DNA from: Bugulina stolonifera | Taxonomy: Eukaryota; Bryozoa; Gymnolaemata; Cheilostomatida; Bugulidae | NCBI GenBank assembly: GCA_935421135.1 | Contig: OW285189.1 | Location: forward strand, 18,559,072-18,623,071 | Direction: 5' to 3' | Length of the DNA: 64,000 nucleotides | Shown: positions 1,005 to 61,360 of the stretch, one piece after another | Numbering within the stretch: position 1 is the first letter of the stretch | How the letters are laid out: each line of letters begins with the position of its first letter | Notes under the pieces: model-generated | Databases searched by the model: none | The model's input: only the letters and a program-made list of their open reading frames with translations | Told to the model about the DNA's origin: nothing | Program-made: the position numbers and the translations under genes

Positions 1005-14674
<13,670 letters not shown>

Positions 14675-37956: not shown

Positions 37957-39731
37957 TTGTAACAAACGAGTGTTGTGGTCATGTAAGAGTTACCTGCTCA
38001 ATGAGAATGGATTACATGGACTGACAACTCTCAAATGGACAGATCATACACTTCCAATTAATCTTATAAATTTTCTGTATATCTTTCAACTCATTTTGTT
38101 TTTGCTAATCCCTTACTTAATTATTGTTATTGGAGCTACCTTGGACTGGTAACCGATTGTGTTAGTTACATGTATATATAATAATATGTGTGCTTTTTGT
38201 CTGATGTTTAACCTGAAGTGATCCATTGAATTCTTCACTCACATGTTGTAGAAGAATCAACCTCCATGTGATAACAGGAGCTTTGTCTACTTCCTTGATG
38301 CACTTCTAATGCCACTCCTCGATACTATATGTCATTATATAATATTGATAAATATGACATTAATAAATTTAATATTCATTTCCATAATTATATTGAACTC
38401 TAGTAAAGGATAACTTAACTTTCGAGAAATGTAGGCATATTAAGGATATATCACGAGTATACAATATTATGCTCGGGTTACTGCTAAGTCATCTATGGAA
38501 ATAGACCTCATCCATACAATGCATGCAGAGAATGTAAAAAGTGTATTGTTATTATGTACGTGATTGTATTGATGTACATTGTTGGCCATCAGTGGTGCAT
38601 GTATGTAGAATTTAGCTACAAATGACATGTCAACCTAGCTATCATAATTCTAGTAACGCCCACTGCAATGGGCAAAATTTCTACATTCTAAACCAAGTTT
38701 ATGCTCAGAAACAGCAAAATGGTTAAAAGGCCTCACTTCACATGCTAGATTCCGACTGCATGAGTGCAAGTTATATAATGATGTCGGAAAAACTACTAAA
38801 TGTTCATGTACTGTTTCAAATTTAAAATTCAAGGGGTGATAATGCAAACCATGATTTGAACTTGAATAAAATCTGCACTACATTTTAATTCATGGCAGAA
38901 CTAAACTAAGTTGCATTTAAATTTATATAAACATGATTCTCATTACACTACTCTTGTTACACACCTTATAGTGCAAATATATGTAGGAATACAGGATGGC
39001 ATGCCTTCCCTTACATATATTTGCTAGCTTATATGACAGAGTTGGCCTTTCCGTATAAATAAATGACCCTTTTAGTGCTTTTATTCCTAACATAAATCAA
39101 TTTAGTCGCAGTAGTGTTCATGTTCATGGTTTAATAAGAAGTGTTGCCAGGAGAGACCAGTGCATGGAGAATGGAGTTGAGAGTATTGATCTATAACCCA
39201 GAAAGTCTTGCATCAGGTGACATAATCACCTGATAAGTCTATCACAAGGGGGCAGAAGACGTATTAAGTTTACATATGGCTTCACTAAACTACACCAAGC
39301 CTCTTCTGGATTAGTATGTCAAAACTAAACCTGGCATTTTTCCTGAACAAAACTTTTACAGCATTTAACACACACAACTACTGGTCTTTTTATACATTGT
39401 GCAATAATAAAATAATACATGTACATGTAGCTTTTAACATTTTTTGCACAATGATAATTTCCATGGATTATCGGAGACAATGCACATGTGCAATATTATA
39501 GATGACTTAGCAGTAACACAAGTATAGTGACTGTCCAGTCATGATGTTCTACCTTTGTTGTATTTTTTATACCTTTGCGAGCAATGAATAACGTGAAAAT
39601 GAATACTCAATATCACATTAATTACTGTTAAACAAACACACCTTGAGGTCATCAAGGATATGAGTGTAGATACAACTCCGACTGTTATCATAATATAGAG
39701 ATTAATCCTTCTCTCTACATGGATATAAAAA

Positions 39732-39745
39732 GGTATAAATATGAG
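39732..39745 (+). promoter_or_regulatory. Conserved TATA element of Gly/Arg-rich gene 1
   Basis: GGTATAAATATGAG is shared, with small changes, by all six Gly/Arg-rich genes. It lies about 30 bases upstream of a conserved GAGCATCAGAC that probably marks the transcription start. A second TATA (39724) is present here but degraded in some copies. Confidence 0.65.
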
Positions 39746-40038
39746 TGGAGAATTCAGTTGAGCATCAGACTTACTTCAGCTAACATAACTTACAGTGTAC
39801 ATCTCAAACAGCAAGTACATATACAGTATTATTATATATGTATAACTAGCATCCGTTATCAACTGAGGAGTTCATTTTACTAGATAACGCAATGGCTTAT
39901 TGATGGCTATTAGGATATAAGCGCACTTCTGATATGTAAAGTAAGATTGCATTAGCATGAAATTTTCATTTTCACACTTTGTCGATTCATTTAATATTTA
40001 TATTCTGTTAACAGGTGACCACATCTCTAGTCCTCACC

Positions 40039-40320
40039 ATGAAGCTCATCACCATTTTAATAGTTGTATGCCTTGTGTTGGCTGCAGCTACTATGTTTGG
40101 AAGAGGAGGTCGTACAAGTGGTGGTAGAGGAGGAAGTGCAAGTGGTGGTAGAGGAGGCAGTACAAGTGGTGGTAGAGGAGGAAGTGCAAGTGGTGGTAGA
40201 GGAGGCGGTGCAATTGGTGGTAGAGGAGGGAGTACAAGTGGTGGTAGAGGAGGACGTACAAGTGGTGGTAGAGGAGGAAGTGCAAGTGGTGGTAGAGGAG
40301 GCAGTAGCAGAAGAAGTTAA
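40039..40320 (+). CDS. Gly/Arg-rich secreted repeat protein 1
   Basis: The 93-residue product starts with a signal peptide (MKLITILIVVCLVLAAATMF). The mature chain is eight near-perfect octads of the form SGGRGG plus two variable residues (SA, ST, RT or GA), ending SSRRS. It has no Cys, acidic or aromatic residue after the signal peptide, so it is strongly cationic and disordered. The ATG was chosen because the transcript is spliced just upstream: a non-coding exon ends at 39810 with a rare GC donor, and the coding exon starts at 40015. A donor at 40342, 21 bases after the stop, and an acceptor at 40683-40684 indicate a 3' UTR intron. Function unknown. Extracellular matrix, antimicrobial or polyanion-binding roles are all possible. 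Confidence 0.85.
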   Translation: MKLITILIVVCLVLAAATMFGRGGRTSGGRGGSASGGRGGSTSGGRGGSASGGRGGGAIGGRGGSTSGGRGGRTSGGRGGSASGGRGGSSRRS

Positions 40321-41671
40321 AGAGGACTATAAGAGTTTATCGTGAGTGAACTAATCAGCCAATTTAATGACTGTTTGTGTTTAATCAAACCAGGATACTA
40401 TGAAATATTTATGCTAGAAAACACAGTAAGTCATAAATATGTTATAATTAAATAGTTAAACTGTGAATAAACTGCTTGAAGTGAATTAACTGCTACTGGT
40501 CAGTGTCATGCCAAAAGAATGTTTTCCAGGCAGTAAGTTTTGCTAGGATTCATAATTTTAATTATTCATAGATACGGAGAAAATCTGAGTAAACTGTTGT
40601 ATACATGTACATGGACATAGACATTATTATATTGAAGTCAACAGTCACTCTATATACTAATTTCTACTTTTGAATTTCTTTTAGAGCACAACATATGACT
40701 TGGAAAAAGAAAGGCACTTGGAGCCTTTATTCTCATCAATGAGCATTATTTACAGGGTTTATCTTATAGTATTATTTTAAATATTTGATCTCTTTAGTAA
40801 TACACATAGTTTAATATTTAATGAGCAGGTAGATAAAATGGATTAGATGGTCACCTACAAAACTAAAATTTTACTATGATAGAGTAGTACATTTAATGTT
40901 AAATAATTAAGTCTGCAAGCAATTATTGTTATAAGTATCAAATTAAAATTCTGTAAACCATGAATCTCTTCTCTGAAACAACTTACAGCTACATGTACAT
41001 GTACATGATGCATCTGTAATTATAAATAAATACTTCAACTTCACCTAAACCATGGTTGTCATGTTTTCAGAATCTTAAGTTCATAAAGTGATATTGGTCT
41101 GTGATTGAAGTCGAGCTACATTACTTGCAATTTATATTTGCATTCATTAAGAATCAGCAACCCTGTTATCGATGACTCCGGTATCAATGATTGAATATGT
41201 ACATGTAGTTAGTGCCAACCTACCTAATCTCTCTTTCAGGGTAAAAAGACCCTTGATTCATATAACTTGGTAAAGTTAACAATACATACAATGCATTTCT
41301 TCCACCAAGATTGAGTGTGATGTCAACATGTTTATATTTATTCCTTATATTAGTTTAAAGAGATTATTGATAATCTATCCCCTTTACCATCCTAAAATAT
41401 CTTTGTTTGGAAGTGGGTATGGTGATTTTATCAAATAACAAAGACTCCAAAGTTCACATTCAGTGGCAATTGTTATAATGTTATGATAACCTACATGTAC
41501 ATGCAACTCAGCATTATATAATTCCTATAAATTGGGATAGGAAAGGGAGGTGATTTTCAGATCCCAAAATACTAGTGCTTCAAGATAATAGGTGGTTGTA
41601 TTGGTGAGTGACACCTACTACCAAGCTACATGTCATGCACTCAGCTTAAATTTCAAACTTCACATTCAACC

Positions 41672-41836
41672 TGTTGGAATTAGCAGTTCTTACTGTTATT
41701 CAGCTTACTTGCTAACTGACTCTATTTACTGTAACATGATATATGACTGAAATTACAGCTCAGAAACTTATATTTCAAGCCGAAGAAAAACAAACAACAA
41801 AAAAGCTTATAGCATACAATCTAATGATTCTCAACA
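41672..41836 (-). repeat. 3' LTR of the Copia remnant
   Basis: This 165-bp LTR begins TGTTGGAATTAGCAG and ends TTCTCAACA. It is clearly homologous to the MITE-interrupted copy at 43245-43680, with several substitutions. The element is therefore older than the Gmr1-like one. Confidence 0.85.
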
Positions 41837-42139
41837 CTCTGATTTACTGAGAGCATTTTTGTGATCACAATTTCTAAACAACATGGCAAAAGAAAAACAA
41901 CAACACTGAAATGTCACAATTATCTAAAACATCAATATGACTTTGTATTTACTCCCACTGAAACTAGTTACATAATACAAGGTACATGTATGTAAACCAA
42001 ATTAGACATTGAATTAGATCTACGTACGTTGAATATTGTGGTGAAACGTTCATATAATGCAATTTGTTCACCATAGTCCCCATGGCTTGAACTTGTCCAT
42101 GTTTGTCTCAGATCCAACATCGGTTTCGACCACATAGAA

Positions 42140-43165
42140 CAATCATTTGTGTTAAGTGGCAGCTTTTATTGATATCAGGTTCTCTGTCAGTTCTGGTGCA
42201 TAGAGTACATCCATAAGATAAACCCGCTTAGCTTTTGTACGACCAGTTTGTATCACCAATTGAACTGTTCCAGTTCCTACAACGGTGACACCATGGTTGT
42301 CTCCAACATGAACTTCTTTAGGTGGTGACAAACTCTCGATATTCAGTTAAAACTTTCTTATCTGGGTTCATGTGTGATGAGGCAGCAGAATTGATTATTC
42401 ATGATTTCCTGAAATCTTCTTTAGTACTGCCTGAAATTACAAACGCAACCGCCTCATCTTCTACATCATGACCTGACATTACACTATTCGCCACATTAAC
42501 ATCGCTCTTCAACCTACATGTATGTTTCGGAATAGGACAATCTCGTTGGAAGTGATCGGTGCTCCCACAGTTGTAGCATTTTCCACGGTTACACTTTCGC
42601 TGACCAGCTCTGGTTTGCACAGCATATGTAGATTCACCAGGATTTCCATTGATTATTGCATCATGTTTTTCTCGGTTCTGCTCTTCATCTAGCAAAGCTT
42701 GCTGTAGTTTTACTAGTGTTAAGTCCTCTTAAGATTCTAGGATTGTAGCTAGATGTGCATAACTGCCAGGTAAATTCCCAAAAGAGCAACAATCTGCTCC
42801 TCTCCAGAAATTACAGCTTCTACCGCAGCTAGTTTGTCGACCAGATCTTTCATATACTTAATGTGACTTGTTGCAGATGTACCCTCTGACATAGTGGCCT
42901 TTTTCAGATGAATTTTGCTAGCCAGTGTATTGAGCTCAAAATGTCTCTCAAGTTCGGACCAAGCTTCGGTCACACTCTCACATTCATGAATTAGGTATAT
43001 AAGCTCGCTGCTTACAGATAACACAAGAAGTGAGAATGCTTCGTAGCAGCAGTTCTTGGGTTTGGTAGTATCCATTAGCAATCATCTCACGCTTCATCTG
43101 GAACTTCCATGTTGAGCAATTCTCGCCATTAAACTTCTCCACCGATAATTTATCGAGTTGGGCCA
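42140..43165 (-). pseudogene. Copia gag and protease remnant, frameshifted
   Basis: Read on the minus strand: LDKLSVEKFNGENCSTWKF and further gag (UBN2-like) sequence, then a zinc knuckle (CYNCGSTDHFQRDC, about 42580-42540), then INSAASSHMNPDKK. That last block corresponds to the Copia protease active site, which normally reads DSGASSHM. The catalytic Asp is Asn and the Gly is Ala, so the protease is dead. Several frameshifts and stops interrupt the frame (gag is split between ORFs starting near 43165 and 43081). Integrase is missing, and RT is missing apart from a possible 3' scrap near 42060-42140. Confidence 0.8.
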
Positions 43166-43244
43166 TAGTACAGATACTCGCAACAACAAGCAGAGACAGA
43201 TCTCTAAAATCTACGGTCAAAGTCAGAACTCTGGGCCCATGACC

Positions 43245-43680
43245 TGTTGGAATTAGCTGTTCTTGATGCTATTCAGCTCACTTACTAACTGACTTTATTT
43301 ATGTGTAACATGATATATAACTGAAATTACGGCTCAGAAAACTACAGGTGTCTTCGCGACCTAAACTTTAGACCCAGGCCGATTTACGAAAATATTTTCC
43401 GGCACACATCCGTCACAGGATCGCGAACACACCGGCCTGGGCCAAAAGCAAAATCCTCATTTTCGCGCGAAGAAGTCAGGTGTGCCGATGAGCTAGGGAT
43501 GGTTTTGTCCGGCCAAGCAAAATCCCAGGCCAATAGCTCTTCTGACCTGGGTCAGGCGGCCATCTTGTGATTTTAATTAGCGACCCAGGTCCGTCCAAGA
43601 GGTCGCGAAGACACCTTATGCCAAGCCAAAAAAACCAACAACAAAAAAGCTCATAGTATACAATCTAATGATTCTCAGCA
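43245..43680 (-). repeat. 5' LTR of the Copia remnant, interrupted by a MITE
   Basis: Removing the 271-bp insertion leaves 165 bp, the same length as the other LTR. Confidence 0.85.
43346..43616. mobile_element. GC-rich MITE with perfect 17-bp terminal inverted repeats
   Basis: The ends AGGTGTCTTCGCGACCT and AGGTCGCGAAGACACCT are exact complements. The 271-bp interior is much more GC-rich than its surroundings and includes CpG-bearing motifs such as TTTCGCGCGAAG and GGCCTGGGCC. It has no ORF. TA is present near both ends, but the exact target duplication is ambiguous by one base. Confidence 0.85.
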
Positions 43681-43815
43681 CAACCAAGAAATTAAAATCA
43701 ACTACCAAAATACTCACTAATTATTAGAAGAGTTATACCAGAGGGTAGGAATGTAGCTCCCATGGTGTTCACTGTGTATTGAGTGGGCTTATCATTCAAG
43801 TATATTTATAATGCA

Positions 43816-43901
43816 TGCACTATAATCATTGGTTTTGTAGTTCCATTCATGTTACAAATTTGTAACTTGAATGGAACTACAAAACCAATGATTATAGTGC
43901 A
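43816..43901. repeat. 86-bp nearly perfect palindrome
   Basis: Two 43-bp arms meet at 43858/43859 (GTTACAAA|TTTGTAAC) with one mismatched pair. The left arm resembles the corresponding place in the other two cluster units. The right arm is its inverted copy and has no counterpart there. Confidence 0.95.
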
Positions 43902-44129
43902 ACGCTGCTATCGGTTCTTATAGATTTGTCATGATATCACATATATGCAAATACATTGTAGATAATGAGCTTATTGGTAATTGAATTAATGAAGATAATC
44001 TACATGTACAAAGATGGTACTTATTCGTTTCACCTGGCAACACTTACAACGGCACATAGGACAGCATCTACATGTACATGTATATAATGTTTTAAACATG
44101 CGTAGATCGAGAAGAATACTTGGTATAAG

Positions 44130-44420
44130 TGTGTAGGTTATATATTTCTATGACACATGTATATTAATATAAACGAATGTCTCACGATTTTGGAAGAAGG
44201 AGATTATACTTTTCGATATTTTATTTTTGGCTCATATTTGTCAGGCAGGCACAGAGCAGAATTATTCCCGTACATTTAAACTGAGTATTCTAGTTAATCA
44301 CATGATTTATAAATATTTTCCACCCACATCATGTTTGACATATAAAATATGGAAAAATCTAGTTGAGTTTTTACACCAAAGAGCCCAGAAACATGGAGGA
44401 CTCGTGTTCAAACTAAATGA
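44130..44420. repeat. Conserved non-coding block of the cluster unit, copy 1
   Basis: Homologous blocks lie at about 51600-51890 and 57270-57510, in each case between the plus-strand gene and the minus-strand gene. Shared segments include GAAGGAGATTATACTTTTC and CAGAAACATGGAGGACTCGT. The reading frames are not kept, so it is probably carried along in the duplication. Confidence 0.7.
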
Positions 44421-45076
44421 TAACTTCACACTATTCAACTGAGCAGATTAAAATAGCGACAACAAGATTTAGGTTTAATTTTAAAAGTTTGAGGTATAGA
44501 TATTTATTTAATTAACAACAAGTAAAATCACATAATACAGTAAGTGGTAAGTTCTTATATGCGTAAGGTTCATGGTTGTTGAACCTACACAGCAGTGTAC
44601 ATTAGCAGTTCTATATATCAGTTCTTTTACAGATGTATGGTGTGCTATTCATGTACTGAATTTTCTAATTGAAATTAAATCAAAAAATCAAATCAAAAAA
44701 AAAATTTCTGTGTTATAAATTATATTATCTTAGACAGTGTAAATAAATTGAACTAATAGTAACAAGTCGAGTGTAGAGTCCAAGTGTAGAGTCATGTTCA
44801 GATGTCTTTCCTTTCCGATTCTGCCAATTCTATTGGTTTCTAAAAGAAATACAGAAATATGAGAGATAGATTTTCACAGCTATCTTAACAGGAGGACTGA
44901 ATTATATATTATTATACATATGTATTATTATTATATATTATGCATTATATATGTATGGATAGTTGATGCATTTTTGAAGAAATAAATCACTAACTTGATC
45001 TCAATCGGAACAATATTACACTTACCTTTGCTTGTTTCAACAATAATACTTTTGTAATTTCAAGTGATGAATATAC

Positions 45077-45380
45077 TGTGGTAGATTCTAGAAGTGTTTT
45101 TGCAAGCTGGTATTGTAATTGTAAGGCTAGGGAAGCTGTTGCTTTTTTACCTATATAATAGCAGTTAGCTATATGTAGCTCTAGCTGCATGTAGCTATTT
45201 TAGATACTTATATATAAGGGATTTTTATATAAAGTAGGAGAGAAGGAGTAGAGTAAGTAGAGAGAAAGTGGAAGAGAAGTTGAAGTGTTAATAAAGCAAA
45301 AGTTAGATCTACAAGTGTATAGACAAACCCTGGAGAAGGTTTATGGAATAACAGTTGAATGAACAGTAGAATCCATAACA
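45077..45380 (+). repeat. 5' LTR of the non-autonomous element
   Basis: 304 bp, nearly identical to 46682-46983, suggesting a fairly recent insertion. Confidence 0.9.
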
Positions 45381-45440
45381 TTGGTGGCAGCAGTGGGATT
45401 TCGGTCTAAACACTCTAACTGCTCAACACTTACAACGGAC

Positions 45441-45775
45441 AGTCATGCTTAGATGGATAGGGTAGACTATCTTGTAAGAGTCCAGCGTGAGCATGGTGTT
45501 TATGCCATAGCCTATCATGCTGTGTATAGCTCATCAGGATCTACACCTAGGAGTAGTGAGCCAGGAAGCTGGAGGATACTTTCTCTCTAACACTTACAAC
45601 TCGTATTACACCGACTGACTCAGAAAGTCATGCTAAGATGGATAGGGTAGACTATCTTGTAAGAGTCCAGCATGAGCATGGTTTTTATGCCATAGCCTAT
45701 CAAGCTGTGTATAGCTCATCAGGATCTACACCTAGGAGTAGTGAACCAGGAAGCTGGAGGATACTTTCTCTCTAA
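45441..45775 (+). repeat. Internal tandem repeat of the non-autonomous LTR element
   Basis: A block of about 150 bp starting AGTCATGCTTAGATGG (45441-45590) recurs at 45627-45775. Further on, a second unit with GTGTATCCAG and CAACCTATAGGAGCCTCTAA recurs about four times (near 45880, 45995, 46245 and 46370). Confidence 0.85.
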
Positions 45776-46681
45776 TAACAATTGGATAGAAATTATTGTG
45801 TTATGTATTTATTTTAGTTTTTGTAATTATTTTAATTTCATGAGTACTGTTTGTTGGTGCCTGTTATATCTCGTCGTTCAGATGGTGTATCCAGAATCTA
45901 CGGTAGAATGGTATAATGCAACCTATAGGAGCCTCTAACCTTCTATTTGTGGAATCGATGCTACTAACATTGAAGTGAGCACAGGTGTGGTGTTCAGATG
46001 GTGTATCCAGTGCCTACTGTAGAATGGTGTAATGCAACCTATAGGAGCCTCTAACCTTCTATTTGTGGGACGTATACTACTAACATCAAAGTGATCACAG
46101 GTGTGATGTTCAAACATATGGAGGAGACACGAGAATCACTTGTATCTACTAATGGTGCTAAAGATAAAACAGGACAATGGTATAAAAACGGAGATTTCTA
46201 ACTACGGAGTACTTGTTTGTTGCCTACTATATATTGATGTTCAGCTGGCATATCCAAGGTCTACTGTAGCTTAACATGGTTTAATGCAACCTATAGGAGC
46301 CTCTAAACCTCTGCTTGGTTAGACTGATACTGCTTGCATTGAAGAGAGCACTGGTGTGATGTTCAGATGGTGTATCCAGTGTCTACTGTAGAATGGTATA
46401 ATGCAACCTATAGGAGCCTCTAACCTTCTATTTGTGGGACGCATACTACTAACATCGGAGTGAGCACAGGTGTGATGTCCAGAATATTGAGGAGGCAAAG
46501 GAGTATCTTTGTATCTGCTACCGCTGATGCTAAAGGCCAGACAAGACAATAGTGTAGAAACTAAGTTTTAAAACTAATGGACATTTACTAAAACTTTCTT
46601 CTACTTTTTATGATCAGGTTATCCATTGTGTTTATCGATGTAGGTGTAGGTAATACCCACACCTCATCTAGGAGGGGAGAA

Positions 46682-46983
46682 TGTGGTAGATTCTAGAAGT
46701 GTTTTTGCAAGCTGGTATTGTAATTGTAAGGCTAGGGAAGCTGTTGCTTTTTTACCTATATAATAGCAGTTAGCTATATGTAGCTCTAGCTGCATGTAGC
46801 TATTTTAGATACTTATATATAAGGGATTTTTATATAAAGTAGGAGAGAAGGAGTAGAGTAAGTAGAGAGAAAGTGGAAGAGAAGTTGAAGTGTTAATAAA
46901 GCAAAAGTTAGATCTGCAAGTGTCTAGACAACCCAGAAAAGGTTTATGGAATGACAGTTGAATGAACAGTAGAATCCATAACA
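46682..46983 (+). repeat. 3' LTR of the non-autonomous element
   Basis: 302-bp partner of 45077-45380, preceded by a purine tract. Confidence 0.9.
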
Positions 46984-47249
46984 ATACCACTATAATGATA
47001 GTTATACTAATTATCAATACCATTAAGCCTTATACATATAGCTATGCATATACATTGCAAATACTTATTTGTTACTTGAATATACCACTATAATGATAGT
47101 TATACTATATCAATACCATTAAACCTTATACATATAGCTATGCATATACATTGCAAATACTTATTTGTTACTTGAATAACATAATTATTAACATGGTGAG
47201 ATAAATTCAGTGTGAAAATTACTTGTATCCATCGTTTGTTCTATTCACC

Positions 47250-47732
47250 TCATAAGCTTCTCCTGCTATTACTTCTTCTGCTGCTCCTCCCACTACCTCC
47301 ACTACTGCCTCCTCTACCTCCACTACTGCTTCCTCTACCACCACTACTGCCTCCTCTACCACCACTTGCACTGCCTCCTCTACCACCACTTGCACTGCCT
47401 CCTCCTCTACCACCACTTGCACGGTCCCCACCTCTTACAGGAGTTCTACTTCCACTAGCACTTCTACCACCAGCAGGAGTTCTTCTACTGGGTCTACTGG
47501 TAGTTGTTACTCTACCCCTGGCAGTAGTTCTGTCACGTCCCCCACCACTCCCACCTCTACCAGCACCAATACCTCCTCTGCTACCTCCACTACCACTTCC
47601 TCTGCTTACTCCACTACTTCTGGTTCCACCTCTGCCTCCGCGTCTAGCACCACCTCTGGTATTGGATACACCAAACATAGCAGTTGCAGCCAACACAAGG
47701 CATGCTACTATTAGAATGGTGATGAGTTTCAT
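47250..47732 (-). CDS. Gly/Arg-rich secreted repeat protein 2 (long form)
   Basis: The 160-residue product has a signal peptide (MKLITILIVACLVLAATAMF) almost identical to that of protein 1. The mature chain begins GVSNTRGG, passes through a non-repetitive Arg/Ser/Thr segment (RDRTTARGRVTTTSRPSRR, about 75-95), and then carries SGGRGG octads and a basic tail (SSRRSNSRRSL). The coding exon starts at 47756 and a non-coding exon ends at 47967 (donor GTAAGT). Several Arg-Arg sites could allow proprotein cleavage. The gene is convergent with gene 1 and divergent from gene 3. Function unknown. Confidence 0.84.
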   Translation of the reverse strand: MKLITILIVACLVLAATAMFGVSNTRGGARRGGRGGTRSSGVSRGSGSGGSRGGIGAGRGGSGGGRDRTTARGRVTTTSRPSRRTPAGGRSASGSRTPVRGGDRASGGRGGGSASGGRGGSASGGRGGSSGGRGSSSGGRGGSSGGSGRSSRRSNSRRSL

Positions 47733-48031
47733 GGTGAGGACTATAGATGTGGTCACCTGTTGACAGAATATAAATATTAAATAAATTTACAAAGTGTGAA
47801 AATGAAAGTATCATGCTAATATAATCTTACTTTACATATCAGGAGTGCGCTTATATAACCTAATAGCCATCAATAAGCCATTTTATTATCTAGTAAAATA
47901 AACTCTTCAGCGGATAGCAGATGCTAGTTATACACATATAATAATACCGTATGTACATGTACTTACTGTTTGAGATGCACACTGTAAGTTATGTTAGCTG
48001 AAGTAAGTCTGATACTCAACTGAATTCTCCA

Positions 48032-48045
48032 CTCATATTTATACC
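48032..48045 (-). promoter_or_regulatory. Conserved TATA element of Gly/Arg-rich gene 2
   Basis: Minus-strand GGTATAAATATGAG in the same position relative to the non-coding first exon as in gene 1. Confidence 0.6.
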
Positions 48046-48329
48046 TTTCTGGTATCCATGTGTAGAGAAGGATTAGATAATAGTAGGAGTTTTGTCTATG
48101 TATATCCTTGATGTTTTCCAGATGTCTTTGTTTAACAATAACTAATGTTATATTAATTATTCATTTTCACATTATTCACTTCTTACCAAGATGTAAATAA
48201 TACAACAAAGGTGGGACATCATGAGTGTACAGTTATTATACTTGAGTTACTGCTAAGTCATCTCGATGTGCATTGTCTCTGATTATCCATGGAAATGATC
48301 CTAGTGAAAATGATTCCTAGTGGAAAATG

Positions 48330-49110: not shown

Positions 49111-49412
49111 CATTTTTTTGCATGAGTTATATTACAATAAGGACCATTTCCACGGATAATCAAAGACAATGCACATCTAAATGACTTAGCAGTAATTCAA
49201 GTATAATAATTGCTTGGTCATGATGTCCCCCTTTGCTGTATTTTTTATATCTTTGCAAGCAATGAATAATATGGAAATGAATACTCAATATCACATTAAT
49301 TACTGGTAAACAAAGACATCTAGAGGTCATCAAGGATATGTGTGTACATGTAGATACAACTCCTACTGTTATCATAGAGAGGTTAATCCTTCCCTCCACA
49401 TGGATATAAAAA

Positions 49413-49426
49413 GATATAAATATGAG
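49413..49426 (+). promoter_or_regulatory. Conserved TATA element of Gly/Arg-rich gene 3
   Basis: GATATAAATATGAG followed by GAATTCAGTTGAGTATCAGA, as in the other copies. Confidence 0.6.
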
Positions 49427-49714
49427 TGGAGAATTCAGTTGAGTATCAGACTTACCTCAGCTAACATAAATCACAGTGTACGTCTCAAACAGTAAGTACA
49501 TCTTATTATACATGAGTATAACTAGCATCTGTCATCAGCTGAGGAGTTCATTTTACTAGATAACCCAATGGCTTATTGATGGCTATTAGGATATAACCGC
49601 ACTCCTGACGTGTAAAGTAAGATTATATTAGCGTGATATTTTCATTTTTGCACTTTGTCAATTTAGTTAACCTTTATATTCTGTTAACAGGTGACCACAT
49701 CTCTCGTCCTCACC

Positions 49715-50068
49715 ATGAAACTCATCACCATTCTAATAGTTGTATGCCTTGTGTTGGCTGCAACTGCTATGTTTGGAAGAGGAGGAAGTGCAAGTGGTGG
49801 TAGAGGAGGCAGTACAAGTGGTGGTAGAGGAGGCAGTACAAGTGGTGGTAGAGGAGGAAGTGCAAGTGGTGGTAGAAGAGGCAGTACAGGTGGTGGTAGA
49901 GGTGGTCGTACAAGGGGTGGTAGAGGAGGCAGTGCAAGTGGTGGTAGAGGAGGCAGTACAGGTGGTGGTAGAGGAGGTCGCACAAGTGGTGGTAGAGGAG
50001 GTCGCACAAGTGGTGGTAGAGGTGGTCGTACAAATAACGGGAGAGGAGGAAGTAGCAGAAGAAGTTAA
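49715..50068 (+). CDS. Gly/Arg-rich secreted repeat protein 3
   Basis: The 117-residue product has the family signal peptide followed by about eleven SGGRGG-type octads. Several have TGGGRGG or TRGGRGG variants and one has NNGRGG, before SSRRS. The non-coding first exon ends at 49491 and the coding exon starts at 49691. A 3' UTR intron begins at 50090, 21 bases after the stop, with its acceptor at 50434-50435. It is the longest of the three short-form genes because of extra octads. No function is assigned. Confidence 0.85.
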   Translation: MKLITILIVVCLVLAATAMFGRGGSASGGRGGSTSGGRGGSTSGGRGGSASGGRRGSTGGGRGGRTRGGRGGSASGGRGGSTGGGRGGRTSGGRGGRTSGGRGGRTNNGRGGSSRRS

Positions 50069-52680
50069 AGAGGACGATGAGAATATATCGTGAGTGAACT
50101 AATCAGCCAATTTAAAGATTGTTTGTGTTTAGTAAACCAGTATTACTATGAAGTATTTCCACTAGTTAACACAGCAAATCATAAATATTTTATACTGAAC
50201 TCATGTAAAGCTATAAAAAAGACTGCTTAAAGTGAATTAACTGCTACTTGTCAGTGTCATGCCGAATGAATATTTTCCAGGTTGTCATTTTTGTTACAAT
50301 TTATAATTTGAATTAATTATTGACACTGAGAAAATCTGAGTAAAATATTGTATACATGTACATGGACATAGACATTATTATGTTGAAGTTAACAGTCACT
50401 TTATATGCTCATTTCTACTTTTGAATTTCTTTCAGAGCACAACGTATGACTTGGTAAAGAAAGACACTCGGAGCCTTTATTCTCATCAATTAATATAATT
50501 TACTGCGTTTATTTTATAATGCTATTTTAAATATCTGATTGCGTCACAGTTTTATATTTAATGAGACAACTGATACAACTTTGCTGTAACATGGTATTAC
50601 TTTTACTGCTAAATATGTCTTCAACGAATTATTGTCATGACTATTAAATTAAAATTCTATAAACCATTAATCACTTTTCTGAAACAACCCACAATTATTT
50701 ATAGTTTAAATAAATACTTTGATCAACTTCACCTAAAACGTGGTTATTCATGTTTTTCATAATCTCAAGTTCATAAAGTGATATTGGTCTGTGATTGAAG
50801 CTGTGCTACATGACTTGAACGCTATATGTATTTCTTCCACCAAGAGTGAGTGCGATATCAATTTATATTTATATTTATTCCTTATATTACTTTAAAGGGA
50901 TTATTGATAATCTATCCCCTTTACCATCCAAAAATATCTTTATTTGGAAGTGGGTATGGTGATTTTATCAAATAACACAGATACTGTCTCATAGTATCGT
51001 TCAACTTTAGTGGCAATAGTTTTGTGATGATCTACAGGTGCTACATTATTATATAATCTGTATGGATTGGTACCCAATATACACGTACTAGTGCTTCAAG
51101 ATATTGAGTGGTTTCATTGGTGATTGACTTCAGAATAACTATCCAAAAAATGTACACAGCTTGAGGAATTACAGTCAACTACCAAAATACTTCCGAGTTA
51201 TTAGAAGAGTTATGCCAGACGGTAGGATTGTAGTTTCCATGCTGCTCACTGTGTGTGGATGTAATTAGATTGTTATGCAAGTGTGTTTATTATTAGCAAA
51301 TTTATTTGGCCATACTCAATGGTTTTGTATTTTCATTTATATACATGTACAAAGACAACCCTGCCATAATTTCTTATAGATTTTTCACAATCTAGTCTTT
51401 TTAAAGTTAGTCTACAACAGTTTGAAACATGCAGAAGTGTGGAAGTGTTCTAGCATTTGGGTAAGAGTTCAAGATAATCTATAGAGATGAGATGGTATTT
51501 AACCATTTCAACTGGCATACTTGTATATAAAGTATAACAATTACATTGCAATGGTTCAAACATGCGTAGATCGAGAAGAATACTTGGTATACAATGTAAG
51601 TGTGTAGGTTATATATTTCTATGACACATGTATATTAATATAAACGAATGTCTCACGATTTTGGAAGAAGGAGATTATACTTTTCTACAGTTTATTTTTG
51701 GCTCATGCTTTTTCAGGCAGGCAGAGAATAGAATTATTACCATTATGTGTAAATGGAGTATTCTAGCTAATTACATGATTTACAAATATTTACCAATCAC
51801 TGCATGCAGTATGTATAAAAGTTTAGAAAAATCTAGTTTCATTTTTGCATCGAATAGCCCAGAAACATGGAGGACTCGTGCTCAAACTAAATAATAATAA
51901 CTTCAGATTAGGGAACTTTATGGATTACGGTTGTAGTAACAAGATGTAGGTTACAATTTGAAAGCTTGAGGTATAAATATTTATTTAATGAACAAGAAGT
52001 AAAATTACATAATACAGTAAGTGGTAAGTTCTTATATATTATGTATGATTCATGGTTGAAAAACATACACAGCAGTGTACATTAGCAGTTCCACATAATT
52101 TTGTTACAGATGTATGGTGTGCTATTCATGCACCGAATATTCCAATTGAAATTAAATCAAACGGTTAAAGTTATATTTAATAATTACAAAAGGCATTTTC
52201 TGTATTATAAATTATATATGTTATAAATTATATATGTTATAAATTATTTGAGCTATTAGTAACAAATGCAGTGTAGAGTTCTGGTGTAGAGTCAAGTTCA
52301 GATGTCTTCCATTTCCGATTCAGCTTATTCTGTTGGTTTCTAAGAGAAATGCGAAAATATAAGTGATTAATTTTGACAGCTAGTAACAATGATGTCAACC
52401 TACATTATATATGAGTAGCTGATGCATTTTTGAAAAAACACAAACCTGATCTCACATGGAATCATTGCACTTCCCTTCAGTTGTTTCAACAGTACTATCT
52501 TTTGTAGTTTCAAGGGATGAATATGTCACCCTAATTATAGTGATACCAATCACGCCTTATATCTATGCATACGCAATGATACTACTTATTTGGTACTTGA
52601 ATAACATAATTATTACTATAGTGAGATAAATTCAGGTGGAAGAAAACTACTTGTATCCATTGTTTGTTTTATTCACCTCA

Positions 52681-53187
52681 TTAGCTTCTTCTGCTATTAC
52701 TTCTTCTGCTGCTCCTCCCACTACCTCCACTACTGCCTCCTTTACCACCACTTGAATTGCCTCTTCTACCACCACTTGCACCGCCTCCTCTACCACCACT
52801 TGCACTGCCTCCTCTGCCACCACTTGCACTGCTTCCTCTACCACCACTTGCACTGCCTCCTTTACCACCACTTGCACGGTCCTCTCCTCTTACAGGAGTT
52901 CTACTTCCACTAGCACTTCTACCACCAGTAGGAGTTCTTCTACTGGGTCTACTGGTAGTTGTTACTCTACTCCTGGCAGTAGTTCTGTCACGTCCCCCAC
53001 TACTCCCACCTCTACCTGCATCAATACCTCCTCTGCTACCTCCACTACCAATTCCTCTGCTTACTCCACTACTTATGGTTTCACCTCTGCCTCCACGTCT
53101 ACCACCACCTCTGGTATTGGATACACCAAACATAGCAGTTGCAACTAAAACAAGGCATGCTACTAGCAGGATGGTGATGAGTTTCAT
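52681..53187 (-). CDS. Gly/Arg-rich secreted repeat protein 4 (long form)
   Basis: The 168-residue product is close to proteins 2 and 6: signal peptide, GVSNTRGG start, Arg/Ser/Thr central segment (RDRTTARSRVTTTSRPSRR), SGG(R/K)GG octads and the tail SNSRRS. Some Arg are replaced by Lys (ASGGKGG). The coding exon begins at 53211 and the non-coding exon ends at 53411. It is divergent from gene 5 and convergent with gene 3. No function is assigned. Confidence 0.84.
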   Translation of the reverse strand: MKLITILLVACLVLVATAMFGVSNTRGGGRRGGRGETISSGVSRGIGSGGSRGGIDAGRGGSSGGRDRTTARSRVTTTSRPSRRTPTGGRSASGSRTPVRGEDRASGGKGGSASGGRGSSASGGRGGSASGGRGGGASGGRRGNSSGGKGGSSGGSGRSSRRSNSRRS

Positions 53188-53475
53188 GGTGAGGACTAGA
53201 GATGTGGTCACCTGTTGACAGAATATAAATATTAAATAAATTTACAAAGTGTAAAAATGAAAATATCATGCTAATGTACTCTTACTTTACATACCAGGAG
53301 TGCGCTTATATCCTAATAGCCATCAATAAGCCATTGTGTTATCTAGTAAAATGAACCCCTCAGTTGATGACAGATGCTAGTTATACACATGTATAATAAT
53401 ATGTACTTACTGTTTGAGATGTACACTGTAAGTTATGTTAGTTCAAGTAATTTTGATGCTCAACTGAATTCTCCA

Positions 53476-53489
53476 CTCATATTTATACT
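53476..53489 (-). promoter_or_regulatory. Conserved TATA element of Gly/Arg-rich gene 4
   Basis: Minus-strand AGTATAAATATGAG, one base different from gene 1. Confidence 0.6.
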
Positions 53490-53893
53490 GTTTTATATCC
53501 ATGTGGAGGAGTTGTGTCTATGAATATCTTTAATGTTTTCCAGATGTCTATGTTTAACAATAACTAATGTAGTATTAAACATTTATTTCCATACTATTCA
53601 TTTTTTGCAAAGATGCAACAAAGATCGGACATAATGAAAGGACAGTGTTATTATACTTGAGTTACTGCCAAGTCATCTACATGCAGATGTGCATTGTCTC
53701 TGATAATCCATGGAAGTGATCCTTATTTATTATAACTTGTGCAGGAAAAGGTAAACAGCTATTGTGTTACTGTTACGGATATTAAAATGCTTGGTTTACA
53801 TTCTATTTTAGGTATTTTATATAAATTTTGTAAAAACAACATAACAGAACGAGGTACACATAAAACCTTGTATTAGTTGTCGTTAAGATATGA

Positions 53894-53921
53894 CCATAGA
53901 GTTTGGTTCCAAACTCTATGG
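53894..53921. repeat. 28-bp fold-back
   Basis: CCATAGAGTTTGG and CCAAACTCTATGG are exact complements separated by TT. The homologous places upstream of genes 2 and 6 lack it, so it is a local insertion. Confidence 0.9.
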
Positions 53922-54199
53922 ATTTGACTAACTCGAGGTAAAGTCCCTGGCATTGGAATTTACTTGATCTGCTATATTGTCAAAAGTGATATTAAATTGC
54001 ACCAATACATAACTTCATGTATAATACTTGTGATTTTATAGACCAAAGTAAAAAAAAACATAATAATAACACTATATAGTAATGCCCATAAACATTCAAA
54101 ATGTTTTAGTTCAAACTTGGCATTACATGTCTTTGGTCAATTCATGTCTAACCAATGGCAGTTACCTACACACAGTTGATAACTTTTGTTTTGACATAT

Positions 54200-54700
54200 C
54201 TAGTGTTGGTGCAACTTAATTTTCGTCTTTTTCTCTGGAGACTAGCAATGTGTTTAACCAGGAGGTGCATAGTTTCAATCCCACCCCAATCTAATTGCCT
54301 CAATTGCTAACGATGATCCACCTGTTTAGGTCAATGTAAAATGATGTATCTAAACCTCTAAATGGAAATTTCCTCTTTAGTTTCGGAATGACTAGACCAT
54401 CTGCAGTAGAATTCACTCTTCCTACTCTAATCATCCATAATCATGTTATGTCAACTGATTAGTTACATCCAGCTAATTATTTGCTTTATTATTGCCGAAA
54501 AATGAAATTCTATCAGCAAAAAGAATGCATAGACATGAGTTAGCATATGACCGTGTATAAGTAGAGAGCAGGAGAGCCCAGAACTCAGAGAATGAACTCA
54601 GAAAGTCTCCCATCAGTTGAGGTATTCAGCTAATAAGTCAGTCACAGAAGTTTTAAATAATGTACATGTACATAGATAGCTGCTCTACTAGACAATACAA
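54200..54700. repeat. Upstream block shared with the gene 7 region
   Basis: Segments such as TGCATAGTTTCAATCCCACC, CTTTAGTTTCGGAATGACTA and GGAGTTAGCATATGA-like sequence correspond to 60810-61090, upstream of the Gly/Phe-rich gene. This ties gene 7 to the duplicated unit. Confidence 0.7.
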
Positions 54701-55073
54701 AACATGTTCCAGATTAGTGAATCAAAATCCACACACCGCTACTTGCCAACTGATGGAATAATAAGATAATAGCTTTTCGCATTTTTTACACAAGTTGCAT
54801 TACATAAGAATCATTTCCATGGATAGTCAGGGACAATGCACATCTAGATGACTTAGCAGTAATTCAAGAATAATAATTGCCTCATCATGATGTCCCACCT
54901 TTGTTGTATTATTTATGTCTTGGTAAGAAGTGAATAATTTGGAAATGAATAATTAATATTACATTAGTTATTGTTAAACAAAGACATCTGGAAAACATCA
55001 AGGATATGCATAGACAAAACTCCTACTATTATATAATCCTTCCCTTCACATGGATACCAAAAAGGTATAAATA

Positions 55074-55087
55074 TGAGTGGAGAATTC
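55074..55087 (+). promoter_or_regulatory. Conserved TATA element of Gly/Arg-rich gene 5
   Basis: GGTATAAATATGAG. The more distal TATA seen in genes 1 and 3 is destroyed here (TGGATACC). Confidence 0.62.
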
Positions 55088-55327
55088 AGTTGAGTATCAG
55101 ACTTACTTCAGTTAACATAACTTACAGTGTACATCTCAAACAGTAAGTACATACAGTATTATAATATGTGTATAACTAACATCTGTTTTCAGCTGAGGAG
55201 TCTATTTTAAGTGTACTCCTAATATGTAGCCAAGAGTACATTAGAATGATATTCTCATTTTTACACTTTGTCAGTTTGTTTAATATTTATATTCTGTTAA
55301 CAGGTGACCACATCTATAGCCCTCACC

Positions 55328-55585
55328 ATGAAACTCATCACCATTCTAATAGTTGTATGCCTTGTGTTGGCTGCAACTGCTATGTTAGGGAGAGGAGGCC
55401 GTACAAGTGGAGGTAGAGGAGGCAGTACAAGCGGTGGTAGAAGAGGCGGTACAAGTGGTGGTAGAGGAGTCAGTGCAAGTGGTGGTAGAGGAGGCGGTAC
55501 AAGTGGTGGTAGAGGAGGAAGTACAAGTGGTGGTAGAGGAGGAAGTACAAGTGGTGGTAGAAGAGGAAGTAGTAGAAGAAATTAA
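55328..55585 (+). CDS. Gly/Arg-rich secreted repeat protein 5
   Basis: The 85-residue product is the shortest family member, with the same signal peptide and about seven octads (SGGRGG with ST, GT or SA; one SGGRGV), ending SSRRN. The non-coding exon ends at 55142 and the coding exon starts at 55304. A 3' UTR intron begins at 55607 and ends with AG at 55929-55930. No function is assigned. Confidence 0.84.
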   Translation: MKLITILIVVCLVLAATAMLGRGGRTSGGRGGSTSGGRRGGTSGGRGVSASGGRGGGTSGGRGGSTSGGRGGSTSGGRRGSSRRN

Positions 55586-56990
55586 AGAGGACTAGGAAAA
55601 TTTAGCGTGAGTGAACTAATGGGCTAATTTGAAAGCTGTTGTGTTTATCAAATAGCTGTACTAGAAAACGCAGTGAATCACAATAATGTATTATACTAAG
55701 CACAAGTATAAGACGACCACCTGAAGTAGATTAACTACTACTGGTGAGTGTCATGTCAAAAGAATAATTTTCAGGCAGTAGGTTTTGCTAGGATTCATAA
55801 ATAGAATTATTTATTAACACAGAGAAAACTTGAATAACTTGCTGTATCATATGTGTACATATAAATGCACACACATGTAGAATGAGCAGAATTTCTTATG
55901 CTGAAATCTATGCCTTTCAAATTATTTTAGAACACCACTCAAGACTTGGAACAGAAAGACACTCAAAGCCTTTATTCTTACCAACTGATAAATTTACAGC
56001 AATTATTTGACACTATTATTTTCAATACCTGATCTTACCAGCTATATTCTATTATAGTTTATATGTTTAATAAGTCAGTAGTTAAAGTCGCATGATTAAA
56101 TAGTCATCCATAGCACTACAATTTTATGATCATATGTTATCACCTTTACTGTTGAATATGCCTTCAAGCAATTATTGTTATGAATACCAATTAAAATTTT
56201 ATAAACCATAAATCCCTTTTCTATAACAAATCACATCTGTTTGGAATTTAAATAAATACATTTAGCATAAATATTACCATAACATATAGCTATTATGTTT
56301 TAGACTTTTAGCTCATAAAGTGATATTGGTCTGTGATTTAAATCCTACTACATGACTTGCAAGCTAGATTTTTATTTATTAAAATCAGCAAGCCCATTGC
56401 GATGATTGGATGCGTATTAAGTGTCAACCTACCTATTCCATCTCCCAGGACAGAAATATTTAATTTGTAAAAGTTGGTAAAATTAACAATATACAGGTAT
56501 ACAACATGGAGTGTGATGTCAACATATTTATATTTATTTCTTATGCTACACGTAGTTGAAAAAAATTGCTATGCCAGGAATCCTAGGTTCAATTTCCGTA
56601 AAGGTCATTGGTGGTGGTAGGAAGGGTATCCAACCTTTTAATGCTCCTGTGCTACTTCGGTGACTTTGGTAACTTTGGCACTGGTGGGGTTGTCTTCTTA
56701 TCCCAAAAAGTAGAAAAAATGCAGATCTCTTTAGATCACTGCTTACTTCAGATTAGTAGTGAGAAGTAAAACTGGTAAGCAATTTGAAAATAGTTACTAT
56801 TTAATTTATAATCATTAAATGCCTTCATTTGAAAGTGGGTCTAAGTGCATAAGTAGTTTACTGTATATATACCACATTAGTCTAAGGATGTAGTTTCTAT
56901 GCCCTTCGCTATCCTGTGGAGTATATTTATAGTACACAGCTCTATGTGGCAATACTAAATGGTATTGTATTTTCATTTATAAACAAAGAC

Positions 56991-57090
56991 TGTTGTAGAC
57001 AAACTTCAGAAAGGCTAATGATACTAGTATTCTGGTATCATTAGTTATAGATTTTACATAACCTAGCCTTTCTGGAGTTGGTCTACAACA
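56991..57090. repeat. Nested fold-back in cluster unit 3
   Basis: Outer arms of 27 bp (TGTTGTAGAC at 56991, TCTACAACA ending at 57090) match in inverse with two mismatches. Inside is a second fold-back, CTAATGATAC and GTATCATTAG (57015-57044). The homologous part of unit 2 has only the right outer arm. Confidence 0.85.
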
Positions 57091-58091
57091 GTTTGAAATA
57101 TGTAGAAATGTGGAGAATTCCCAACATATGGGTAGGGAGTCCAAGATAATCTACATGAATGAAATGAAACATTCATTTTTTCTGGCACTTGCATGTACTA
57201 CGTATAGTACAGTAATTATAATTATAGCTTGCTTTAAACATTAGTGGACAAAGAGAGTATTTGGTATAGGTGTGTAGGTTATGTACAAATTACATGTATT
57301 TCTACATGTAGGTAAATTAATTTGGGAGATGGAGAATATATTTTCACAAATTACTTTTGGCTCATGTTTGGCTGACGGGCAGAGAGTAGAGTTATTACCA
57401 AATGTTTAAATGGACTGTTCTAGTTTATGAATTCATTTACAAATATTTTCCACCCACTGCACGCTTGACGTATGAAATATGAAAAAAATCTAGTTGCGTT
57501 TTACACCAAACTAGATGATAGCTTCACACTATGCAACTGAACGGATTGAAATTGTAATAACAAGATTTAGGTTATATTTTCAGTGCTATGTCTACGGATA
57601 ATGTCAAGAAAACAGGCAATGTTGAAACTCACAGCAACTATGAAGTCTTCCACTAACTGTTGGTGCTTTTGTGAACATTTCCGATTCTAAACGGTGTTGA
57701 GCACTTGTTGCTATTATGGGGTAAATGACACATATATAAATACATTTGTAAATGCTATCCTTTTAACAGCATAGTCTAATATGAATAATGTGCATGTACA
57801 TGACATTGTATATTATTACATAATATACAATGCAATAATAATATAATGACGTTAATAGCCAATTTTTGAAAGGTTGAGGTATGTTTATTAAATTCACAAG
57901 AAGTAAAATATTATATGTACGGTAAGTGGTGGGTTCTCATATGAGATTCATGGTTGTTGAACCTACACTACAGTATACATTTGTGGTTCTGTATAATATC
58001 GTGTTATATAGTAGATGTATGACATGCTATTCAAGTACTGAGTTTACTAATAGAAATTAAATCATAAGGTTGCAGTTATATAACAAAAAAA

Positions 58092-58162
58092 ACATATGTT
58101 GTATTATAAATTATATATATTATAAATTATATATATTATAAATTATATATATGTTATAAATT
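58092..58162. repeat. AT-rich tandem repeat
   Basis: TATAAATTATATATAT is repeated about four times. A shorter version lies at the homologous place in unit 2 (about 52205-52250). Confidence 0.85.
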
Positions 58163-58684
58163 AATTGAGCCAATAGTAACATGGCCAGTGTAGAGTAAAG
58201 TGTAGAGTCCAAGTGTAGAGCCCAGTGTAGAGTCCAAGTGTAGAGTCATGTTCAGATGTCCTTCCTTTCCCATATTCTACCTATTCTGTTAGCTTCTAAA
58301 AGAAATATGGAAATATCAGGCATAGATTTGCACAGAATTGCATAGAATATTATTAACAATATAATGTCAACCTACATATAATGTACATCATACATGACTT
58401 ATCGCTGATGTATTTTTGAAAAAGAAGCGCAAACCTGATCTTCTGATGACAACAATTACACTTACCTTTGCTTGTTACAACAGTAATACTTTTGTGATTT
58501 CAAGTGATGAATATACCACTAATAATGGTAGTTATACTATATCAGTCCCATTAAGCCTTATACATATAGCTATGCATATACATTGCAAATACTTATTTGT
58601 TACTAGAATAGCATAATTATCAACATGGTGAGATAAATTCAGTGTGAAAACTATTTGCATTCATTGTTTGTTCTATTCACCTCA

Positions 58685-59197
58685 TTAGCTTCTTCTGCTA
58701 TTACTTCTTCTGCTGCTCCTCCCACTACCTCCACTACTGCCTCCTCTACCACCACTTGCACTGCCTCCTCTACCACCACTTGTACTTCCTGCTCTACCCC
58801 CACTTGTACTTCCTCCTCTACCCCCACTTGCACTTCGTCCTCTACCACCACTTGCACTTGCACTGCCTCCTCTACCACCACTTGCACTGCCTCCTCCTCT
58901 TACAGGAGTTCTACTTCCACCACCAATTCTACCACCAGTAAAAGTTCTTCTAATGGGTCTACTGGTAGTTGTTACTCTACCTCTGGCAGTAGTTCTGTCA
59001 CGTCCCCCACCATTCCCACCTCTACCAGCACCAATACCTCCTCTGCTACCTCCACTACCACTTCCTCTGCTTACTCCACTGCTTCTGGTTCCACCTCTAC
59101 CTCCACGTCTACCACCACCTCTGGTATTGGATACACCAAACATAGCAGTTGCAGCCAGCACAAGGCATACAACTATTAGAATGGTGATGAGTTTCAT
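58685..59197 (-). CDS. Gly/Arg-rich secreted repeat protein 6 (long form)
   Basis: The 170-residue product has a signal peptide (MKLITILIVVCLVLAATAMF), a GVSNTRGG start, the conserved central segment (RDRTTARGRVTTTSRP), then octads with an irregular SASASGG joint and SSRRSNSRRS at the end. The coding exon begins at 59221 and the non-coding exon ends at 59419. It is convergent with gene 5 and divergent from gene 7. No function is assigned. Confidence 0.84.
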   Translation of the reverse strand: MKLITILIVVCLVLAATAMFGVSNTRGGGRRGGRGGTRSSGVSRGSGSGGSRGGIGAGRGGNGGGRDRTTARGRVTTTSRPIRRTFTGGRIGGGSRTPVRGGGSASGGRGGSASASGGRGRSASGGRGGSTSGGRAGSTSGGRGGSASGGRGGSSGGSGRSSRRSNSRRS

Positions 59198-59483
59198 GGT
59201 GAGGACTAGAGATGTGGTCACCTGTTAACAGGATATAAATATTAAATAAATTGACAAAGTGTGAAAATGAAAATATCATGCTAAAGTACTCTTGGTTACA
59301 TATCAGGAGTACTACACTTGTATCCTAATAGCCATCAAAGCCATTTTATTATCTAGTAAAATAAAGTTCTCAATTAATAAGAGATGCTAGTTATACACAT
59401 ATAATAATATGTACTTACTGTTTGAGATGTACAGTATAAGTTATGTTAGCTGAGGTAAGTCTGATGCTCAACTGAATTCTCCA

Positions 59484-59497
59484 TTCATATTTATACC
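59484..59497 (-). promoter_or_regulatory. Conserved TATA element of Gly/Arg-rich gene 6
   Basis: Minus-strand GGTATAAATATGAA in the family position. A second TATA (ATATAAAAAG) lies just upstream. Confidence 0.62.
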
Positions 59498-59934
59498 TTT
59501 TTATATCCATGTGGAGCGAAAGATTAGATAATAGTAGGAGTTTTGTCTATGTATGTATATCCTTGATGTTTTCCAGATGTCTATGTTTAACAATAACTAA
59601 TGTAATAATAATTATTCATTTCCATATTATTCATTTCTTACCAAGATGTAAATAATACAACAAAGGTGGGACATCATGAGAGGACAGTGTCATTGTACTT
59701 GAGTTACTGCTAAGTCATCTATAATATTGTGCATTGTCTCTGATTATCCATGGAAGTAATCTCTTTTTAATATAATATGTAAATGTGAGGAAAAGATGAA
59801 CAGCTATTGTATTACTGTTACGGATATTAAAATACTTGATTTACGGTTCTATTTTAGGTATAGTGCATAAATGTTGTAAAAACACTTTGAAGGACCCAGG
59901 TACACATCATAAACCTTTTATTTATTGTTATTTA

Positions 59935-61349: not shown

Positions 61350-61360
61350 GGTATAAAAGG
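61350..61360 (+). promoter_or_regulatory. TATA box of the Gly/Phe-rich gene
   Basis: GGTATAAAAGG, followed by CTTCAGTTGAGCAACACC, which parallels the TTCAGTTGAGCATCAGAC start region of the Gly/Arg-rich genes. Confidence 0.65.

Follow-up and report, generated by a model that had tools for sequence, protein, structure and literature searches.

The question raised by this locus is what kind of product is made by a compact set of repeat-protein genes that alternate between the two DNA strands of a bryozoan genome. The locus lies in a 64,000-nucleotide (nt) stretch of the Bugulina stolonifera assembly (C3:18559072-18623071, hereafter the window), very probably on chromosome 3, and the genome searches reported here cover the 234,951,659-base, 27-contig assembly. 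An initial annotation had placed in it three plus-strand genes (P1-P3, 85-117 amino acids, aa) alternating with three minus-strand genes (M1-M3, 160-170 aa), and all six open reading frames (ORFs) were recovered where it had put them (Table 1). The six-gene observation is confirmed, and the cluster is larger than first noted. Our favoured reading, held tentatively and at close to even likelihood, is that the six genes would encode secreted arginine polycations, which would supply the positive charge of a material outside the cell (an adhesive, cuticle or slime).

Common architecture of the six genes

The TATA element, non-coding first exon and start context that had been described as common to the six genes form a single layout in every copy, as judged from upstream alignment and measured landmarks, with splicing predicted. 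In order, the genes carry a TATA element, an initiator-like TTCAGTTGAG, a 55-nt non-coding exon 1, an intron and a 79-nt 5' untranslated region (UTR). The initiator-like A stands at 39756, 49437 and 55088 on the plus strand and at 48021, 53465 and 59473 on the minus strand. The upstream TATAAAA is intact in four of the six genes; P3 and M1 retain the second TATAAATA only. The predicted exon 1 donor is AAACA followed by GTAAGT (GCAAGT in P1), and the acceptor predicted in all six genes is AACAG followed by GTGACCACATCT. The predicted introns measure 204, 199 and 161 nt in P1-P3 and 210, 199 and 197 nt in M1-M3. Moreover, the six upstream regions can be aligned over several hundred bases.

The proposal of a tandemly copied two-gene unit is borne out by self-BLAST, which resolves three tandem units. 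Convergent stop-to-stop distances are 6930, 2613 and 3100 nt for pairs 1 to 3, the first being longer because of two insertions, without which about 3.0 kilobases (kb) would separate its stops. One insertion is of long terminal repeat (LTR) type, having 304-nt direct repeats that are 97% alike, TG..CA ends and, by inspection, ATAC at both edges. The other, about 2.04 kb long, is absent from unit 2 and contains pieces of ORF that are copia-gag-like by appearance. Since the 5' portion is common to all six, the inverted pair probably arose first, from a single gene. Among the 15 pairs of genes, P3 and M1 have the most similar proximal upstream blocks (95%) on opposite strands, a likeness that points to gene conversion between copies in inverse orientation.

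Downstream of the stop, alignment points to a likely 3' UTR intron common to P1-P3, with a GTGAGT donor soon past the stop and a TTTTAG-like acceptor. Additionally, a 27-nt block at 41080-41106, about 760 nt past the P1 stop, is identical in 26 of 27 columns across P1-P3 between flanks of 74-86% identity; it is possibly a 3'-end processing element.

Table 1. Features of the six genes, their insertions and the Phe/Gly-rich neighbour (positions in the window)
Feature	Position	Strand	Basis
P1 coding sequence (CDS), 93 aa	40039..40320	+	open reading frame, composition
P2 CDS, 117 aa	49715..50068	+	open reading frame, composition
P3 CDS, 85 aa	55328..55585	+	open reading frame, composition
M1 CDS, 160 aa	47250..47732	-	open reading frame, composition
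M2 CDS, 168 aa	52681..53187	-	open reading frame, composition
M3 CDS, 170 aa	58685..59197	-	open reading frame, composition
P1 core promoter: TATAAAAAGG, second TATAAATA, TTCAGTTGAG	39724..39762	+	pattern match C3:18598795-18598833, alignment
P2 core promoter	49405..49443	+	pattern match
M2 core promoter	53459..53497	-	pattern match
M3 core promoter	59467..59505	-	pattern match
P1 non-coding exon 1, predicted, GC donor	39756..39810	+	landmarks
P2 non-coding exon 1, predicted	49437..49491	+	landmarks
P3 non-coding exon 1, predicted	55088..55142	+	landmarks
M1 non-coding exon 1, predicted	47967..48021	-	landmarks
M2 non-coding exon 1, predicted	53411..53465	-	landmarks
M3 non-coding exon 1, predicted	59419..59473	-	landmarks
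LTR-type insertion, unit 1	45077..46983		self-BLAST, alignment
Second insertion, unit 1, edges approximate	41613..43686		ORFs, self-BLAST, alignment
Phe/Gly neighbour core promoter, TATAAAAGG and TTCAGTTGAG, motif as in the six genes	61352..61389	+	pattern match, read by eye
Phe/Gly/Ser/Arg-rich secreted-looking ORF, GFGS repeats, single copy	61657..61956	+	ORF, searches; exon 1 and intron by inspection

Protein chains, selection and family relations

All six proteins begin with MKLITIL(I/L)V(V/A)CLVL and continue as a Gly/Ser/Arg chain. This start resembles a signal peptide in six of six by inspection, in keeping with the common signal peptide noted at first, and the proteins are predicted to be secreted. 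The mature chain was taken to begin after residue 19, a cut chosen by eye. Mature chains had been characterized as free of Cys and strongly basic; indeed, none contains Cys, their isoelectric point (pI) is 12.0 and their charge at pH 7 ranges from +12.8 to +28.8. They consist of 33-49% Gly and 17.6-20.6% Arg, with 0-5 acidic and 0-2 aromatic residues each, and are probably disordered. In P1-P3 the signal peptide is followed by SGGRGGxx units (24 nt each) and an SSRRS/N terminus, and M1-M3 have about 85 non-repeat residues ahead of the repeat units, plus the tail GRSSRRSNSRRS.

Selection appears to act unevenly along these chains. In the 20 signal-peptide codons, the synonymous rate (Ks) exceeds the nonsynonymous rate (Ka) in 15 of 15 pairs, with few changes per pair, and the signal peptide thus seems to be under constraint. 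Across 252 nt of non-repeat sequence in the M genes, the Ka/Ks pairs are 0.050/0.046, 0.063/0.093 and 0.092/0.078; as Ka is about equal to Ks there, composition may count more than exact sequence, and for the mature chain any constraint would reach no further than frame and composition. Of 18 CDS gaps, 15 have lengths divisible by three, compared with 38 of the 165 gaps in the flanks (Fisher p 6.8e-7); pairs overlap in this comparison, and it is biased because many of the CDS gaps amount to whole repeat units, inherently multiples of three. In 5000 runs of a neutral substitution simulation, all six frames stayed open in 13% at the CDS rate and in 4% at the flank rate, and therefore openness alone is weak evidence.

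Such values would suit young orphan frames that are open mainly through repeat structure and gene conversion and have little function. Ka close to Ks in the non-repeat M region, the share of neutral runs with all six frames open and the several alternative frames likewise open across the repeats are compatible with that account. It is nevertheless quite improbable in view of the conservation profile, since mean identity over the 15 pairs reaches 91-95% in the core promoter (92.6%), exon 1 (91.3%), exon-2 UTR (95.0%) and first 63 coding nt (90.8%) versus 77.6% in the distal upstream region and 87.5% in the intron, the proximal upstream region standing at 84.9%. Furthermore, the frame has been maintained through many repeat-number changes.

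No family could be named for the six proteins at first, and this still applies: 0 of 6 match a Pfam family and 0 of 6 an NCBIfam family. The protein-database search covered two of the six, giving no match for whole M1 at E 1e-3 among 7990 scored candidates and none for M3 residues 1-45 at E 10 among 188 candidates. That database includes proteins of Watersipora subatra and its Bugulina coverage is uncertain, so that missing matches say little about transcription. One PDB match at E 0.094 was taken as chance, and nothing in the window reached Rfam gathering scores. At the DNA level, a 391-nt query from upstream of P2 matched the assembly six times, always in the window (simple repeats are skipped by the search). 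The P2 protein found 31 matches in the genome, comprising the 6 family members and 25 matches at 10 other places. Four of these RGG-like places were inspected and rejected, three being long tandem repeats that do not begin with a signal peptide and the fourth having no Gly-rich frame by the filter. As far as searched, i.e., in its own genome and for two proteins in the protein database, the six-gene family was not found elsewhere. The already-known kind to which it would belong is that of low-complexity extracellular matrix or cement proteins.

Instead of forming glue, the six could be structural: proteins of the cuticle (ectocyst) or of a mineral-associated matrix that bind chitin or calcite. 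Cuticles commonly contain repeat proteins rich in Gly. The ectocyst of bryozoan zooids is cuticular and often calcified, according to the available part of PMC7317743. However, Pfam finds no chitin-binding domain and there is no acidic mineral-binding stretch among the six, and we regard this role as rather unlikely.

The wider cluster and candidate functions

What had been proposed for the proteins themselves, namely that they are secreted-looking, Cys-free, strongly basic and unmatched, stands, whereas the six genes are not the whole cluster, as a seventh gene lies just past the range first noted (39700..59500) and two more families lie nearby. The ORF of the seventh, a Phe/Gly-rich neighbour, is 35% Gly and 21% Phe, with a pI of 12 and a signal-peptide-like start; its gene has an apparent non-coding exon 1 and intron. 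A secreted-looking Gly/Tyr-rich ORF at C9:15177694-15177921 (L075) is weakly like this neighbour (E 9.3e-4). Genome-wide, the promoter pattern has 11 matches, made up of four of the six genes, the Phe/Gly neighbour and six outside matches, and a reversed-pattern control gave 7. Because the outside matches are at control level, the motif was dropped as a genome-wide marker; no clear secreted repeat ORF was seen within 1.5 kb downstream of any of the six outside matches, all of which were checked.

Both of the additional families, which encode short secreted repeat proteins, occur at C3:18.63-18.78 Mb, within about 160 kb. The Gly/Ser/Tyr family comprises five minus-strand ORFs: a decayed copy in L061 (5474-5821), about 7.5 kb past the Phe/Gly gene, and an array at 18665, 18674, 18684 and 18694 kb whose repeats include GSSGYGRGGSGSASKES. 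The copy at 18665 kb, the shortest, is perhaps damaged. A C-terminal GGYKGYRKFGLY is found in three of the five, and S-x-E sites number 2, 3, 4 and 7 in four ORFs and 0 in the decayed fifth. The Ser-rich family has ten plus-strand copies at 18659-18778 kb (L088-L097), all inspected. Five end in SASSDSSSSSSSSRSSSS; in these poly-Ser-tailed copies, 20 of the 38 mature residues are Ser, the Ser/Arg tail spans 13 residues, and Ser is encoded by both AGY and TCN codons; four of the five tailless copies have one or two additional GKLHRRVYRSAS units. Over 18659-18694 kb, four Ser-rich plus-strand genes alternate with four Gly/Ser/Tyr minus-strand genes, and hence the alternating-strand layout is present twice in the stretch. 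The genome also contains two Fam20C-type kinase loci.

These neighbours bear on two other candidate functions. The main rival to the polycation role holds that the six are antimicrobial or defence peptides of a linear, Cys-free, cationic and glycine-rich type, with the amplification in arrays that is often seen for immune peptides. Their small size, secreted look, strong positive charge and tandem amplification agree with it, as do the C9 ORF and a borderline match of one Gly/Ser/Tyr protein to PF10917 Fungus-induced (residues 1-43, E 7.2e-5, 23.5 bits against a cut-off of 24). However, that match falls mainly over the signal peptide, the six match neither PF10917 nor any other Pfam family, and with 0-2 aromatics per mature chain and few hydrophobics there is no obvious amphipathic face; we judge a defence role unlikely. 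Short signalling peptide precursors are very improbable: the six do have basic residue pairs in their tails, and the Ser-rich neighbours have them too (HKRVYRSAS or HRRVYRSAS), but the repeat arrays of the six have mostly single Arg between Gly, and dibasic sites are few and irregularly spaced by inspection.

The reading of the six as secreted arginine polycations draws on the signal-peptide codons with Ks above Ka, the pI of 12, the few acidic residues and the presence of six copies in one place. It draws also on the Phe-rich neighbour with the same promoter pattern, the adjacent Ser-rich and Gly/Ser/Tyr families and the Fam20C-type loci. As we infer it, the arginine-rich chain would be exported from the cell and would encounter polyanions, which might be Ser-phosphorylated neighbours, sulphated glycans or mucins. 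Contacts between arginine and aromatic residues of the Phe-rich and Tyr-rich neighbours may perhaps contribute, and chain and partners would condense into a layer of adhesive, cuticle or slime. Dosage would have risen when the convergent pair was duplicated, and repeat number would have changed mostly by 24-nt steps.

Several points weigh against the polycation role. Each functional step is an inference from the genes, and adjacency of genes is not equal to co-expression. The promoter motif is seen in the Phe/Gly neighbour, and the Gly/Ser/Tyr and Ser-rich families may lack it. In the non-repeat M sequence, purifying selection is not clear. In contrast to the closest cement proteins, the six chains contain few aromatics and no Tyr, and a route through 3,4-dihydroxyphenylalanine (DOPA) is unsupported because tyrosinase has a single exon match in the genome. 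Among the presumed anionic partners, the poly-Ser tail is missing from 5 of 10 Ser-rich copies, and 7 of the 8 measured copies (L093 and L096 being outside the measurement) are basic before any phosphorylation. Moreover, the dibasic motifs of the Ser-rich neighbours are also compatible with peptide precursors, and one Gly/Ser/Tyr neighbour falls just below the cut-off of a nematode defence family.

A bolder form of this proposal concerns the whole 180 kb of C3:18.598-18.778 Mb. Bryozoan larvae attach by secretions of an internal (metasomal) sac. The stretch might be a bryozoan cement or slime locus, in which polycations, Phe/Gly, Tyr/Gly and phosphorylated Ser-rich proteins would be co-made into a coacervate glue that evolved separately from tubeworm cement, its genes having been assembled into adjacent arrays of convergent pairs; we consider this conceivable but doubtful.

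Elsewhere in the window, a fucosyltransferase (Glyco_transf_10, Pfam) with a Thr-rich stem occupies 32702-34486 (-), and its best named relative among 80 proteins found is from the bryozoan Watersipora subatra (49% identity). By appearance, a 1482-codon open frame at 3576-8024 (-) is a Gypsy-type retrotransposon polyprotein, a long tandem repeat open in several frames (10326-12122) lies between MBT-repeat-like exons, and several thrombospondin type 1 repeat-like exons occur on both strands at 20611-27128. On another contig, close to a normal paralogue (L038), the cathepsin-B-like exon L040 (C5:14673300-14673470) carries Ser in place of the catalytic Cys (CGSSWAF); an active-site search of Peptidase_C1 loci found cathepsin-type motifs and no silicatein-like motif.

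Comparison with known systems

Bryozoans are common foulers. If the cluster encodes a glue or coating, it would offer testable genes for bryozoan settlement. Two neighbouring arrays have an identical alternating-strand layout. Among the titles and abstract beginnings retrieved for bryozoans with adhesion or glycine-rich proteins, no paper was recognisable as describing bryozoan adhesive proteins.

Repeated Arg-Gly-Gly is a trait of RGG-box RNA-binding proteins, and the six chains resemble these in their Arg-Gly-Gly repeats; they differ in having signal-peptide-like starts and no RNA-binding or other domain by Pfam, and were not assigned to that class. Nematode Gly-rich defence peptides are short secreted Gly-rich chains in arrays. 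The six are set apart from that group (PF10917 and related) by having no Pfam match and almost no aromatics.

Another likeness is found in tick-GRP77, a secreted Gly-rich chain with spaced arginines. In the available part of PMC11794139, arginine and aromatic residues of this tick cement protein drive condensation. Tick glycine-rich proteins (GRPs) have 9-20% aromatics in the same chain, versus 0-2 residues in each of the six. The tick combination of arginine and periodic aromatics in one chain is thus not found in the six, which would need an aromatic partner because of this scarcity.

Tubeworm (sandcastle worm) cement combines, according to the parts of PMC12621633 and PMC4275877 available, basic Gly-rich DOPA proteins (Pc-1 and Pc-2) with a largely phosphorylated Ser-rich protein (Pc-3, phosphoserine). 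Tyr suited to a sabellariid-type DOPA is absent from the six chains and occurs in the Gly/Ser/Tyr neighbours. Candidates for a Pc-3-type polyphosphoserine partner are the Ser-rich neighbours, five of ten of which are poly-Ser-tailed, with two Fam20C loci in the genome and phosphorylation putative. Compared by description, with no sequence relation shown and none sought directly, the sabellariid proteins (Pc-1 to Pc-5 and Sa-1 to Sa-3) differ from the bryozoan set, in which the cation is arginine, the genes are clustered within one 180-kb stretch and half of the Ser-rich copies carry the tail. As far as those sources go, both are low-complexity secreted sets pairing basic Gly-rich with Ser-rich chains, and the bryozoan locus, if it encodes a glue or coating, would allow an independent check on how generally underwater materials follow a recipe of charge-paired low-complexity proteins.

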